In this document: piece after piece, positions 43,461 to 63,192 of the stretch | Numbering within the stretch: position 1 is the stretch's first letter | Layout of the letters: the number at the start of each line of letters is the position of its first letter | From: Ectocarpus siliculosus | Lineage: Eukaryota > Sar > Phaeophyceae > Ectocarpales > Ectocarpaceae | DNA length: 64,000 bases | NCBI GenBank assembly: GCA_000310025.1 | Contig: FN649752.1 | Coordinates: 3,782,346-3,846,345, forward strand | Reading direction: 5' to 3' | Translations under genes and position numbers: made by a program | Notes under the pieces: generated by a model | What the model saw: the letters and a program-made list of their open reading frames with translations, nothing else | What the model was told of the DNA's origin: nothing | Databases searched by the model: none

Positions 43461-44393
43461 AGATTTACGATGAGAACAGCATTCGAATCCGAAACAACCC
43501 AAACAAAACATGTTCAACACTGCGGGTGCATGCGCCAAGACTTGTCTACAGCAGCAGTGTTAAGCGTAAAGAGCAAACGTAGGCACTGTTGGACATTTTC
43601 GATGACGCGAAGTAGAGTCACAGCGATGTGGAATCAGCGAATGAATGAATGTGGAGAAATGTTTCAAACTGTCGTTATTGATAGGTTTCAGAGTTGGTTC
43701 CCAGGCTTTGTCTGCGCGGAAGGCGCCCCCGGGGCATAGAGCCAGTTTTCGCAACTTTGACCGTCAACCACACGCGCTACAGAGGCTCGTACGAGCCTCC
43801 TGCATGCCCCTGAGAAGGAATCGCTAGAAAAAACTCGCTGCCGCGAGAGAAATAAATGCCGGAGCATGAAAAGTGCATACAGCGGTCTGGTGCGTGTGGT
43901 GAAAACAGGGCGTGCAAGAAAGAGAAATTCGCCGGCCAAATTGGTTGTGTAAAATGTTCTTGTAAGGTCGCGTCCGGGTCCCTGCTCAGTCTGTACCTTA
44001 TAACGGACGCGGCTTCTTCCGGTGGCCACAGGCAAGTACCCAAAAAATATACAATGCGTCTTAAAACGTAGTACACTGTGTGCGTCTATTCCGAAAATCT
44101 CTGACAGGAGAGAGAAAGAGCGGGCAACCTACACAATTTATAGACATATACCGTAGGTTGCATAAGATATCACACTTTCATTAGATACCACACCCCCTCA
44201 GAAAACGTACACAATACCACACCCGTGTGCTATTTTTTTCAGCCCCCCAAAAAACGTCATTTTATCACACGGTGACATAAGATACCACACCCCCTGAAGT
44301 TGGGCCGCATTAAATCGACGGAGCCCCTGCTTATCACACGGTGTGACAACGTGAGGACAGAGATCACGACCACACCACCTGCTCGCAAGAGCC

Positions 44394-47300
44394 ATGGAGG
44401 CGGACAATGTCGTGGAGGGTGGTGCAGTTAGGAACCCTGCTGAAAGCCCCGCGGCTCAGACTGCAGTGGGTAAGACTCCAGCGGCGGCCCCACGCTCCAT
44501 AGCGTCCTACTTTCCACCCGCCCCGGGGGAACGTGGGGCTGCTCGGACGACTCCCTCAGCAGCCGCACATGACACCGCACGTACTGCTGAGGCCCGCTCA
44601 AAAGAATCTACTGCTACTGAGACTCCCACAGCACCGGCTGCGCCTGCCACCGCGGGTGCCGCCGAAACCTGCGAAGCAGAACCTACTGCTGAGAATCCCG
44701 CAGCACCCACACCCACACCCGAAAAGGCAGCTCTCCCGCCAACCACCAACACCCTGAGCGCGGCTACTGCTGAGAATCCTGCAGCAGCACCGCGCTGCGG
44801 AGAACCATCGTGCACCAACAAGCCCTTGTGGGCAGAGCCAGGGAAGGATATGCCGGAGTTTTGCGGCAGGCATGCGAAGTCTGGCGACGTCTACATCAAA
44901 ATAAGGTGTGCGCAGAGCGTCTTGCAGTTTGCAGCACATGGGTGTTTGTGAGGATTCTCATGGCTCAAGCAAACCAAAGAACATGCCACGCCTGATTGCC
45001 TGATCGATAACCAGATCGAAAAATAGTGTGATTTTGACGTCGTGTCGTCGCGCTCGCCTCACTGCACATTGGCATGTACACACTACATTTACATGTAGTT
45101 CATATATTCTGGTGTGGGCGAAATGTTTACTGGATTGTTTTTGTCACACACACGACACGTTTCCGCATACCGTTTTTTGTGTTTGTGATGTTTCGGTAGG
45201 AAGACTGCGAAACCCATACCCAACACGTGCAAATATGTACACATAACCTCGACAGCAGTTCGTGCCTGTTTGTGTGAGATACGAAATAGGTGCCGTCAGC
45301 TGCTCACCCTCTGTACCTTGCATGCGTGGACGCCATGACTCTCAACCTGGTGGCCGTTGTCAGAGCTATCCGCTAGCCATCGTATTTTTGGTACGTTTGC
45401 CTGATGGTCGTTGGAGCGAGCGCATTGTTACAGATACTGCACTTAACGACACGTATGCTACATGTTTTGTTGCTTCCTCGAACTCATGCGCTTTTCAGGA
45501 ACGTGCACCTGCCTGAAGCACCGACGACAGCAGCCGCAGCGGCGCCCGTCGGTGACGCCATGTTTCCTGGAGAGTCAGAGGAGTGGACAGATGGTTTCGG
45601 TGGGCGTCTCGACGGCACGCCGGCCGAGGGCAAGGGCAAGGGCAAGAGGAAAAGAGAGCCGCTGGAATTGGAGCCACCAAACTTCCCCATTAAGTTTGGT
45701 GGTGGCCAGAAACGCAAGCGGTACGATTCGGAATTCAAAGTAAACGCCATTAAGTACGCGACCATGCAAAGCCCGGGGGCGCAGGGGCCTAATGGAACCA
45801 TCGGTGTGTCGTATGCGCAACGAGTGCTTGGGATTCCCGAGAAGATCACACTCTCGGCGTGGATAAAAGACAGAACAAAGTACGAGAAGCAGCTGGAACA
45901 GGCAGACCAGCTCGGGCCCAAACGGAAGAAAAAAGCCCGGAGCGTGAAGTCGTTCAACACGGGGAGGGTTAGGTCAAACGCTGAGGCCGAGCTCGAACTT
46001 CTCGACTGGATCAACGACGTTCGTTCGGAAGCCATCTCTGCCCGCGTCTCTACAAGGATGATCAAGAACAAGGCGGTATCGCTCAACTCGCTTTGGTTCG
46101 GCCCGAGGCCTGCAGCGAACGACCTGGAGGGCAGTAGAAAGTACCGCAACAAGCAGACTCACTGGTGCAGGAGGTTCCTTAGGAAGAACCGGTTGTCATT
46201 CCGGGCGGTTACCAGGCAAGGCCAGAAACTCTCTTCTGGGTGGCCTGCGATTGCCATGAAAGCCGTCAAGGAATGGAGGGCGCTTCGTCACGGAGGAATC
46301 GACGGTGGGGGAGGACGGAGCATGGGGGGGGCAACGAGCAGTGCGCCTTCGAAGCCACCTCTGTTGTTCAAGGAGGAGCAGAGCTACAGCATGGATGAAA
46401 CTGCTGTGTGGATGGAGCCCGCTGGCACGTCGACCGTGGCGGTGAGTTCAATAGTGTTGCTTCGAGTCATGTGCCTGTCTGGTCGTTTCTTGGCATTCCG
46501 TGCAAACAGTGGGCATTGTGATGCAATATTTCTTGCCGTACCTACTCAGTGTCCAGCCAGTAAGGCTAGACGACGTTGGTGTTGTGCTTATGCCGGGTTA
46601 GAAGTTTCTTACCATTCGCATCCATCATCGCTGTACTGCAAAACCCATACGTTACTTTGTGCGTGAAGAGCTGTCATTCTCATCTACAAAATCGACCTTT
46701 TTCGTCGCCTCTGCTTTCTCTATTGTTTTTTGCTTCTTATTTTTGTCGTTCGCAGCACACCGGTCAGAAAGAGGTGGCCATCAAAACCGGTGGAAAGGAA
46801 AAGTTGCGGATCACTGCCGTGCTTGCAGCAAACATGAAGGGCGGCAAACTCCCGCCGCTGCTCATCTTCAAGGGTAAGCCTACGGCGCCGGGCAAAACCC
46901 CCCGCTGCCAACAGCATCGAACGAGAGTTCAAGGTGGGCAAGGACAAGAAGGGGGTAGTATACCCTCAGAGCGTTGTGTACGCCGTGGACGACAAGGCGT
47001 GGCACACGCAGCGCGTCTTCAGGGATGTTTGGCTCCCCCAAGTGTGGAACCGGCGCCCGGGTCGCGAGGGGGTCCTGGGCAACTACCGTCAGCCGGACAC
47101 GCTGCTATCGTGGGACGATTACACCGTGCACAAGACAGCCCTGTGCAAGGAAGCGATGGATAAGTCCAACACGACGCTGTTTTTTGTCCCCGGAGGCCTA
47201 ACGCCCAAGATCCAGCCTTGCGATGGACTTATCAACAAGCTGTTCAAGTCCAACATTTCCAGGCTCTACGATGACCACATGGCCTCCACCGACGCCGTGC

Positions 47301-47692
47301 GCAACGACCGCGGCTACCCGGATCCCCCATCGAGGGGATTGCTCGCGCAGTGGGTGAAGAAAGCGTGGGATGAAGTGGACCCTGAGAGCATCCGTTCGAG
47401 CTGGAGGAAGGCTGGCATGACCCTTGCCTTCGATGGATCTGAGGACGAGGCGTGGGCCAACAAGGAGCTCAACTCCGACGCCCAAGGGAAACCACTTCGT
47501 GCAGACGGCGATGCGGCCGCTGCCGGCGTGGAGGAGGCTGGCCCATCGGAGGAGGGGGAGACGATGGCCGACTTGTTGGAGGTGTTGGAAATCGACGACG
47601 ATGACAGCTCGGGAGATGGCGAAGGCAACGATGACTCGGAGGTTGAGGTCATGGCAGACTTGCCGGGGGCGGACGTTGTTTGCATAGACTGA
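44394..47692 (+). CDS. Pogo-like transposase with an N-terminal EsV-1-7 motif; one frameshift
   Basis: Exons 44394-44905, 45499-46441 and 46756-47692 join at GT/AG borders in frame. Residues 1-135 are Ala/Pro/Thr-rich and include SIASYFPP (residues 42-49). Then comes C-GEPS-C, sixteen residues, C-GR-H, which is exactly the EsV-1-7 pattern C-x4-C-x16-C-x2-H (encoded at 44793-44867). A basic segment and CENP-B/Psq-type helix-turn-helix follow (about 45700-45950), then a second DNA-binding region. The DDE_1 catalytic acids are visible as [14 protein letters not shown] and PKIQPCDGL. The tail is acidic. Near 46885-46905, in an A4C6 run, the frame changes by one base before [14 protein letters not shown]. 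That is a single-base indel, either genuine inactivation or a sequencing error. Everything else is open, so the element may be nearly intact. Confidence 0.88.
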
Positions 47693-48079
47693 GGTGTCTT
47701 GTCTGGTATCTACCTACCGTAGTTGCATGCCATGGTCAAGTCAACCAAAGCTGCTATTCGAGCCAATTTGTCCTGGGTTTCATATGTTTCGGTAGTCGCT
47801 TGTCCTCTTGGTTTCTAGCTTTGGTTGATACGTAGCTGGCACTTGCTTGCGTCCTATGTGGTTCCAGCTTGAGTGTTGGATGCAAGTCTTGCAAGTGGTT
47901 GCGTCGTCCAGGTACCTGTGTGCTGTCGTTTTGTCGCACACAACACCGGCACAACCGCTATGAGGTGTCGGTTCTACGTCTTCGTTGTGTACCTATGCGA
48001 AGAATTTCCAAAGGATACTGCGAAAATGCACGTGGGAAAGCATTTACGTGATGGAGTGGTGTGAGCCATCCTAGCTATC

Positions 48080-48400
48080 ACACCTGTTTACACCCCTTGA
48101 CGCCCTTTGTACGTGGGTGCCTCCTGTAAGCGCACCGCATCACTCGAGCGACATTATTATCACACCCCCGTAGGTAGGGTCTTGTGGGCGCACTGCAACC
48201 ACACGGGCGACATTATCACACCCCCGTCAGGCCGGGTCCTGTGAGCGCGTATCATCACACGGGCGAAGTTATCACACCCCCTTGTTATCACACCCCCTGT
48301 AAGCCGGGTCCTGTGAGCGCGCTTCATCACACGGGCGACGGTATCACACCCCCTTGTTATCACACCCCCTGTTGGTGAGACTCTGTGAGTACACTTTATC
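48080..48400. repeat. Subterminal repeat array of the pogo-like element
   Basis: Four to five copies of a ~65-80-bp unit (tatcacacccc, a gggtcctgtgagcgcg-like block, then atcacacgggcga) stand just inside the right inverted repeat. The motif recurs outside the element at 42.6 and 43.3-43.45 kb. Such arrays commonly bind the transposase. Confidence 0.8.
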
Positions 48401-48589
48401 ACACGGGTGACATAAGATATCACACCCCCTACAGAATACCACACCCGTGTGATAGCTTTCGTCCTCCCGAAAATGTTATCACACGGGTGTGGTATCTTAT
48501 GCAACCTACGGGTATGGCACAAGCTTCCACACCCTGTACAACTATGACTTAACAAGTATTACAAATAGTTGGGAAGAGTTCAACTATCC

Positions 48590-57305: not shown

Positions 57306-58021
57306 AAATAACCCGTCCATGTCCACGGCGCCGGGCGGTGTTACGCTTTGACTGTGGAAACAGGACGGTTCAAGACACGGGGAGGATATATATGCAAGCG
57401 AGCAACATCGAGTAGCAGCAAGAGATATTCAAATACACCTCATGATAGCAAAGTAGCGGGAAATGCCGTCACCGTCGTCGTCACGTGCCGCACGTACATG
57501 CTGCAATTTGGAATTCGAACGCCGTACAAAATATTCTTCGCGGAGACCACTCGTGGGAAGCCAGAACCACCCAACATTTCATTCTGATGCCTGGGCAACA
57601 TGTTCAACGGCCAAACACATCGTGGACATACAATTTCCGAACCTTCGGGGCTCGTCTTGAGCCCACTCACCGCCACTGCGCACAAGACCTGAACGGTTGC
57701 TCGATTTTGTCCGAAGTCCTACCCACCGAAAGCTACTCTTATCCTATTATTTTTATGTACCCTCTCTCACTGTTGTCCGCTTTGTGACCCACTCTTGTCC
57801 GAAACGTGCCCATTCTTGCCCCTTTCGAGCCTCGAAAATCAACCTCTACGTCATCGACGAGGGACGTTTTTTAAGGCTCAAAAACAGGCAGAAATTGAGT
57901 ACGTTACATAGGTTTCGGTGCGCATACCCACCAGAGTTTTGAACAAAATCGGGCAACCTTTGAGGACTTGTGCGCCTCGGCGGTATGCGGGTTGAAGATG
58001 ACCGCGAAAGTTCGTAAACGT

Positions 58022-62178: not shown

Positions 62179-63192
62179 CTACGACTTCTTCTTCGGCCGC
62201 CCCCGAGGGCGTTTCTTTCTTCCCCTAGTGTGCTTTGGGCAGAACTCCGCCTTCTTCTTGGTGGGGCCGTCTGCACCAATTGACGTGTACTTGTTGCACC
62301 CTGGGCGGATACATATCTTGCGAACGACGTTCACCATGTCCGCCTTGGCGTGCTGCGAACAGAGCTCCGGCTTCTTGCTGTCGGCCATACCGAAGAACGA
62401 CTGCTTGATGCACCCTGGGTGGCCGCATTTCTTGTATCCGTGAACGCTAACCATGTCTTCCTTGGCGTGCTTCGCACAGAACTCCGCCTTCTTGCCGTTG
62501 GCTGTTCCGTATGATGGATGCGTGACGCACCCCGGGTAGCCACACCTCTTGGCGACGACGTTTACCATGGCCGGCTTGGCGTGTTTGGCACAGAATTCCG
62601 CCTTCTTGCTCCCTTCTGTGCCATATGACGGGTACTTGAGGCACTCTGGGTGGCCGCACTTCTTGTCGACGACGTTAACCATGTCTTCCTTGGCGTGCTT
62701 CGCACAGAACTCCGCCTTCTTGCTGCCGTCTGTACCGAACGATGGCTGCGTGACGCACCCTGCATGGCCACATCTCTTGCTGACGACGTTCACCATACCC
62801 GGCGACCTGTGCTGAAAGCAGAATTGCGCCTTGCCCCCCTCTGTGCCAAATCTCGGCTTCGTGATGCACCCTGAGTGGCCACACCTCTTGGCGACGACGT
62901 TAACCATGGCCGGTTTGGCGTGTTTGGCACAGAATTCCGCCTTCTTGCTCCCGTCTGTGCCATATGACGGGTACTTTAGGCACTCTGGGTGGCAGCACTT
63001 CTTGTCGACGACGTTAACCATGGCCGGCTTGGAGTGCTTTGAGCAGAACTCAGCCTTCTTGCTCCCGTATTCGCCGAACGATGGCCGTGTTGTGCAGTCG
63101 AGCTCCTGGCAGCATGCTCGTTTCTGTCCATTGCGTCTGGCGGTCGTACGCGTTGACTGCAGAAGAGTACGGTGCAAACCATGATCGAGCAC
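62179..63192 (-). CDS. EsV-1-7 repeat protein with eight repeats and AT-hook-like tail
   Basis: A single open frame on the minus strand, stop TAG at 62179, holds eight tandem units of C-x4-C-x16-C-x2-H (third unit x15, eighth x18) separated by HAKPAMVNVV- or HAKEDMVNVV-type linkers. The family, named from an Ectocarpus virus gene and including the brown-algal developmental regulator IMM, is thought to be a small metal-binding fold. The C-terminus RGRKKRPRGRPKKKS contains the AT-hook core RGRP, which suggests DNA binding. The units are very alike (KYPSYGTDGSKKAEFC twice), so the array expanded recently. The frame begins without an ATG (GTG at 63192), so the true start lies in an upstream exon. 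An acceptor-like cttctgcag ends at 63157, and the ATG frame at 63200-63622 is a candidate partner. Confidence 0.88.
   Translation of the reverse strand: MLDHGLHRTLLQSTRTTARRNGQKRACCQELDCTTRPSFGEYGSKKAEFCSKHSKPAMVNVVDKKCCHPECLKYPSYGTDGSKKAEFCAKHAKPAMVNVVAKRCGHSGCITKPRFGTEGGKAQFCFQHRSPGMVNVVSKRCGHAGCVTQPSFGTDGSKKAEFCAKHAKEDMVNVVDKKCGHPECLKYPSYGTEGSKKAEFCAKHAKPAMVNVVAKRCGYPGCVTHPSYGTANGKKAEFCAKHAKEDMVSVHGYKKCGHPGCIKQSFFGMADSKKPELCSQHAKADMVNVVRKICIRPGCNKYTSIGADGPTKKKAEFCPKHTRGRKKRPRGRPKKKS

Follow-up and report, generated by a model that had tools for sequence, protein, structure and literature searches.

What does an EsV-1-7 motif do inside the transposase of a DNA transposon, and how did it come to be there? 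The zinc-type motif is known chiefly from a developmental regulator of algae and from algal viruses, and the EsV-1-7 family, which includes IMM, is expanded in brown algae. The question is raised by a stretch of 64,000 nucleotides of Ectocarpus siliculosus DNA (contig FN649752.1 of assembly GCA_000310025.1, positions 3,782,346 to 3,846,345, forward strand), called the window below, in which a DNA-type, TA-flanked transposon of 4,361 bp occupies positions 44151-48511. As read from its DNA, this pogo-type transposon carries an EsV-1-7 unit at the N-terminus of its transposase, in a single frame over three exons. The EsV-1-7/transposase fusion is already known. What is new is a sister lineage of transposons with a predicted equivalent first exon that lacks the unit.

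An EsV-1-7 unit in a three-exon transposase gene

The unit is encoded at 44796-44897 (+ strand), near the end of the first exon. Its ligands, read directly from the translation, are spaced C-x4-C-x16-C-x2-H, and the window exon alone matches PF19114 over residues 135-168 (Pfam, 35.7 bits, cut-off 25, E 7.9e-9), which bears out the EsV-1-7 motif that a first-pass annotation of this DNA had placed there. The joined protein of an unbroken copy, L040, also matches PF19114 (EsV_1_7_cys), with 32.9 bits against the same cut-off of 25. When the unit is aligned with six host-gene stretches from elsewhere in the window, all four ligands are among the invariant columns, as are a G, an F, and a K. Cys/His spacing is insufficient alone, since similar strings occur by chance: C-x4-C-x17-C-x2-H is found at 47953, on the other strand from the gene, and two relatives, L032 and L035, each have one such string within an intron, in neither case with a Pfam match. 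A PDB search gave no convincing relative, the one match being at chance level (E 0.72).

The gene consists of exon 1 (44394-44905, 170 codons and 2 nt from an ATG at 44394), intron 1 (44906-45498), exon 2 (45499-46441), intron 2 (46442-46755), and exon 3 (46756-47692), all on the + strand. Both introns are of the GT...AG type, and their borders (GT at 44906 and AG at 45498 for intron 1) are kept in 18/18 aligned copies. Joined together, the three exons (512+943+936 nt) give 796 codons, free of stops in three of these 18 copies (L040, L044, and L055). The predicted three-exon model is sound, and the in-frame join of 44905 to 45499 suggested by the first-pass annotation is supported by the borders and by the open frames. 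In the other 15 copies, that of the window among them, the frame is broken. Exon 3 has 937 nt in the window copy vs. 936 nt in 12 of the 17 other aligned copies; the window copy's transposase is therefore frame-broken by one base. It is very improbable that the transposase begins in exon 2 and that exon 1 belongs to another gene or is open by accident. It is true that the exon 2 frame stays open for 41 codons before the acceptor site and that the public gene models P0014 and P0032 start just ahead of or inside exon 2, but the conserved borders and the single stop-free frame argue for one gene. So does an independent gene model from Ectocarpus sp. CCAP 1310/34 (P0035), which fuses the first exon of the sister group to a transposase.

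The DDE_1 domain (PF03184) named in the first-pass annotation is found with 54.4 bits in exon 3 of the window copy and with 68.2 bits (cut-off 22) in L040, where it spans all 177 profile positions. The catalytic triad, D470-D605-D641, is of the DD35D type (residues chosen by eye, spacing then measured). In the window copy, the first Asp, positioned by hand as are the other two, is encoded by exon 2 (46394-46396) and the second and third by exon 3 (47114-47116 and 47222-47224). Exon 2 also encodes a putative helix-turn-helix (HTH) region, with a weak HTH_Tnp_Tc5 match that stays under the cut-off. No CENP-B_N match was found in the element's protein with Pfam, and a genome search with PF03221 (HTH_Tnp_Tc5) listed nine places, none of them in the element's family. 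The order of the transposase, encoded by the three exons, is very probably EsV-1-7 unit, HTH DNA-binding region, and DDE_1 (DD35D) core.

The terminal inverted repeats (left, 44151-44175, +; right, 48487-48511, -) are 25 nt long and match each other at 24 of 25 positions. On the left, the repeat directly adjoins the TA target site (44149-44150); on the right, a single extra G (48512) stands between the repeat and TA. Of 18 loci of nearly full length (L039, the window copy, to L056), 15 carry TA immediately outside both ends, the exceptions being the window copy, because of its extra G, and L041 and L044, with one end each without exact match. The pogo-like transposon with matched ends and TA duplication described in the first-pass annotation thus holds, save for this extra G. 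The Ectocarpus siliculosus genome searched comprises 189 Mb in 492 contigs; a DNA search of it recovered these copies with 97-100% identity, and one more copy is divided between L057 and L058. Of 16 copies measured, 13 are 4,334-4,397 bp long, and the remainder have 4,230, 4,452, and 5,356 bp. Two short pairs of ends were also examined: L065 is a miniature inverted-repeat transposable element (MITE) of 217 bp, and L066 measures 218 bp; both share the element's 19-nt ends and have TA beside them. Genome-wide, the end sequence together with TA, with at most one mismatch, occurs 136 times forward and 132 times reverse (control, 0 and 0).

These features recall TcMar-2_Ec32 of Ectocarpus sp. 7, for which a 2025 report describes a transposase with an N-terminal EsV-1-7 domain, a length of about 4.4 kb, and a 217-bp MITE partner, TcMar-N1_Ec32 (PMC12477816; Genome Biol 2025;26:320). 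The element is likewise of the Tc1/mariner group, and a comparison by description showed no difference between the two. Because its length, its N-terminal EsV-1-7 domain, and its 217-bp MITE agree with the published description, the window in all likelihood holds a single frame-broken copy of a pogo-type, TA-targeting family that would be TcMar-2_Ec32 itself or its counterpart in a close Ectocarpus. The first-pass annotation had known of no description of the fusion; since TcMar-2_Ec32 is published, this claim of novelty fails. In the accessible text of that report, the family is classed under Mariner-Tc1 and the word pogo is not used (PMC12477816). The element nevertheless shares with the pogo superfamily, as far as the available text describes it, a TA target, terminal inverted repeats of at most 40 bp, DDE_1, a DD29-56D spacing, here DD35D, and a transposase of 300-977 amino acids (PMC7386202). 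It differs by its additional N-terminal EsV-1-7 unit and by an HTH_Tnp_Tc5 match under the cut-off. The same text notes that no HTH_Tnp_Tc5/CENP-B-type DNA-binding domain can be detected in Mover, a pogo family found in red algae and Chromista (PMC7386202).

The unit among copies and relatives

Codons of the EsV-1-7 unit were found in 19/19 copies examined. All four Cys/His ligands are still spelled in 13 of them, sometimes out of frame with the start. The unit is damaged in the six others: L044 has a His to Arg change, and L046, L049, L050, L052, and L054, which lie at different TA sites, have two one-base deletions in common. These five look as if a broken version had repeatedly moved in trans. 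The deletion derivatives L059-L062 retain the unit's first codons as far as their deletion, and in L060 and L061 a stop codon was seen by eye within the unit's codons. In L064, a diverged relict of exon 1, an Arg replaces one Cys of the unit, which scores 21.5 bits, just short of the cut-off of 25; the unit is thus not a private accident of the window copy. L064 sits at most 3 kb from a reverse-transcriptase-like open frame (named by eye), possibly as a nested insertion.

The sister lineage consists of L028-L032 and L035, whose exon 2 protein is about 50-60% identical to that of the element. It resembles the element in its exon layout, in the start of its terminal inverted repeats, and in boxes near its left end. 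Its first exon is Ala-rich and keeps a motif of the I-x-S-F/Y-F type, without a Cys/His unit (in L031, the locus holds the later part of the exon only). Exon 1 of L029 and L030 gave no Pfam match, PF19114 included, and P0035 has the sister-type exon 1 with DDE_1 only and no PF19114. The kept motif is a putative PCNA-interacting peptide (PIP) box. In the element it reads PRSIASYF (44490-44513, +), and in the form P-x-x-I-x-S-F/Y-F, for the most part, it is common to the lineages with and without the unit (L028-L030, L032, and L035 for the latter). A scan of the first 120 residues found it in L040 and in 5 of 35 public proteins (P0028-P0031 and P0035), most of the others being without that region. 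The Gln of the canonical PCNA box, which one report describes in pogo, Tigger, and Lemi1 (PMC5371812), is absent from the motif. One sister copy, L028, seemingly 5'-truncated, adjoins several GGGTTA repeats in its first 60 bases on the reverse strand, an interstitial telomere-type run.

Beyond the sister lineage, a third lineage, L033 (contig C56), shows no unit within 2.7 kb upstream of exon 2. A motif search in other DDE_1 families (L001-L008, 8 of 94 DDE_1 places) found no unit either; of the remaining DDE_1 places, the comparison covered only members of the element's family and of the sister and third lineages. In a phylogeny of 35 exon 2 sequences, 20 form the sister clade, apart from the element (support 100/100), L033 stands with P0004 on the side opposite the element, and L034 groups with the element, together with L027, on long branches. 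The element's side (91/86, midpoint root) also holds P0002, P0003, P0005, P0006, and P0032. Searches of public proteins returned 27 relatives via exon 2, 4 via exon 1, and 6 via the joined protein; P0028 and P0031 have no PF19114 match. The complete predicted fusion is seen only in this genome and otherwise in PMC12477816.

Capture of the unit by the transposon lineage, one of the two histories offered in the first-pass annotation, fits this distribution, because the element's branch shows the unit where the sister branch does not. The gain could be placed at more than one point on the element's side of the tree, where the public rows were compared through exon 2, and the sister group may instead have lost the unit. 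The first-pass annotation had also held that related elements without the Cys/His unit would speak against the fusion. Such relatives exist in the sister group; they show that the unit is restricted to a lineage and do not make the fusion false.

Possible roles of the unit

Transposition can be pictured as follows. The HTH region would bind the transposon ends, the DDE core would cut and paste at TA, and unbroken copies would mobilise in trans both the broken copies and the 217-bp MITE. As to the unit, we tentatively favour, at somewhat less than an even chance, the view that this lineage acquired it from the EsV-1-7 family of the host or of viruses, and that it works alongside the HTH as an accessory zinc-binding contact module without being the chief reader of the ends.

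Several points weigh against this picture. The exon join is a prediction from sequence. HTH_Tnp_Tc5 (PF03221) reaches only 15.5-18.6 bits (15.5 in L040), under its cut-off of 22.2. PF19114 is listed in 0/33 public rows (27 from exon 2 and 6 from the joined protein); among the exon 1 relatives, P0028 alone has the CGEPSC start, and it then runs off. In L034, a closer relative by DNA, no matching exon 1 lies upstream in the locus. Finally, the five deletion-bearing copies have spread, which trans-mobilisation explains and a dispensable unit would explain too, and a codon-position test on 18 copies, with too few variants, gave no clear third-position excess in shared variants of exon 1 or of the unit; selection on the unit is therefore not demonstrated.

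The last two points would suit a unit that is a passenger exon segment with no part in transposition. We regard this as unlikely: the four ligands are still spelled in most copies, the unit remains recognisable in the diverged relict L064 despite its lost Cys, and broken copies can be mobilised in trans. It is equally unlikely that the unit is a second DNA-binding domain whose targets are the ATCACACCCCC-type boxes repeated close to the ends of the element. These boxes, (T/A)A(T/C)CACAC, number six at the left end (44168-44340, +) and 12 forward and two reverse at the right end (48076-48494, +). They make up 18 forward matches in 711 subterminal bases (shuffle mean 0.075); the core of 3,650 bases has none in that orientation and one in reverse. 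ATCACACCCCC itself is found seven times in the window, always inside the element (shuffle mean 0.06), and the MITE L065 retains one box per end. Moreover, the sister loci L028-L032 and L035, devoid of the unit, have just 1-3 strict matches each per about 4 kb. However, the left ends of L029 and L030 bear two strict boxes with looser forms such as ATAAGATAACACACCCC (seen by eye), and ACACCCC and TATCACC four times each. Because these unit-less ends have related boxes, boxes of this kind need no unit, and the idea that the unit reads the ends is weakened. The HTH region, common to both lineages, would be the simpler reader of the end boxes.

A third role is possible, if doubtful, namely that of a tether steering insertion or regulation via host chromatin or host EsV-1-7 proteins. 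The unit is additional to the usual pogo anatomy and is seen in one lineage only. Host EsV-1-7 proteins are hypothesised to be zinc-finger transcription factors (PMC12629598), and chromodomain and Tudor readers are described in Gypsy elements of Ectocarpus (PMC12477816). The accessory contact module stays the reading that we prefer. A further reading is quite unlikely, namely that the captured unit, by contacting DNA, chromatin, or a host protein, redirects the transposase as the unit-less sister cannot. If it were true, the pair of sister families would be a natural experiment on what EsV-1-7 domains, IMM's included, bind. The function of EsV-1-7 domains matters for brown-algal development because IMM has such domains and the family is expanded, and a transposase with the unit beside a unit-less sister family offers a simple route to the unit's contacts. 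The value added here is this with/without pair, together with the occurrence of such end boxes without the unit.

The host EsV-1-7 family

The element's unit resembles those of EsV-1-7 proteins (IMM and its relatives) in the PF19114 pattern C-x4-C-x16-C-x2-H followed by HAK, as given in the accessible text of three reports (PMC7457493, PMC12993054, PMC12629598). It differs from them as a lone unit fused to a transposase, whereas host genes carry arrays. The first-pass annotation had also suggested that mobile elements helped to spread the family. The element does carry a unit and does move, its copies being at different TA sites. Yet a seeding of the host family by elements of this kind is extremely improbable, as host genes have arrays where the element has a single unit, and the listed host units are only about 33-52% identical to that of the transposon. 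These host units are the best 150 of 880 candidates; weaker single units like the transposon's are not among them. By eye, no host array was found at a transposon end when these 150 were set against those of the 268 terminal-repeat places that were listed, and the closest listed pair, the window element aside, is about 60 kb apart (contig C29). Scans of viral contigs, weak because they used exact-word patterns, gave seven pattern matches and no relative with the exon 2 protein, and no match with a host EsV-1-7 array.

Outside transposons, the unit of the element is matched best by a CGEPEC unit in L063 (56 bits, 42% identity, E 1.3e-4). L063 has two EsV-1-7 units in one reading frame, about 0.5 kb apart, and is probably a host gene. 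The window itself also has EsV-1-7-type units of the host, at distances of 8-15 kb from the element: one gene (62427-63126, -) contains at least seven in tandem, and two further motif matches are found at 57306 (-) and 56971 (-).

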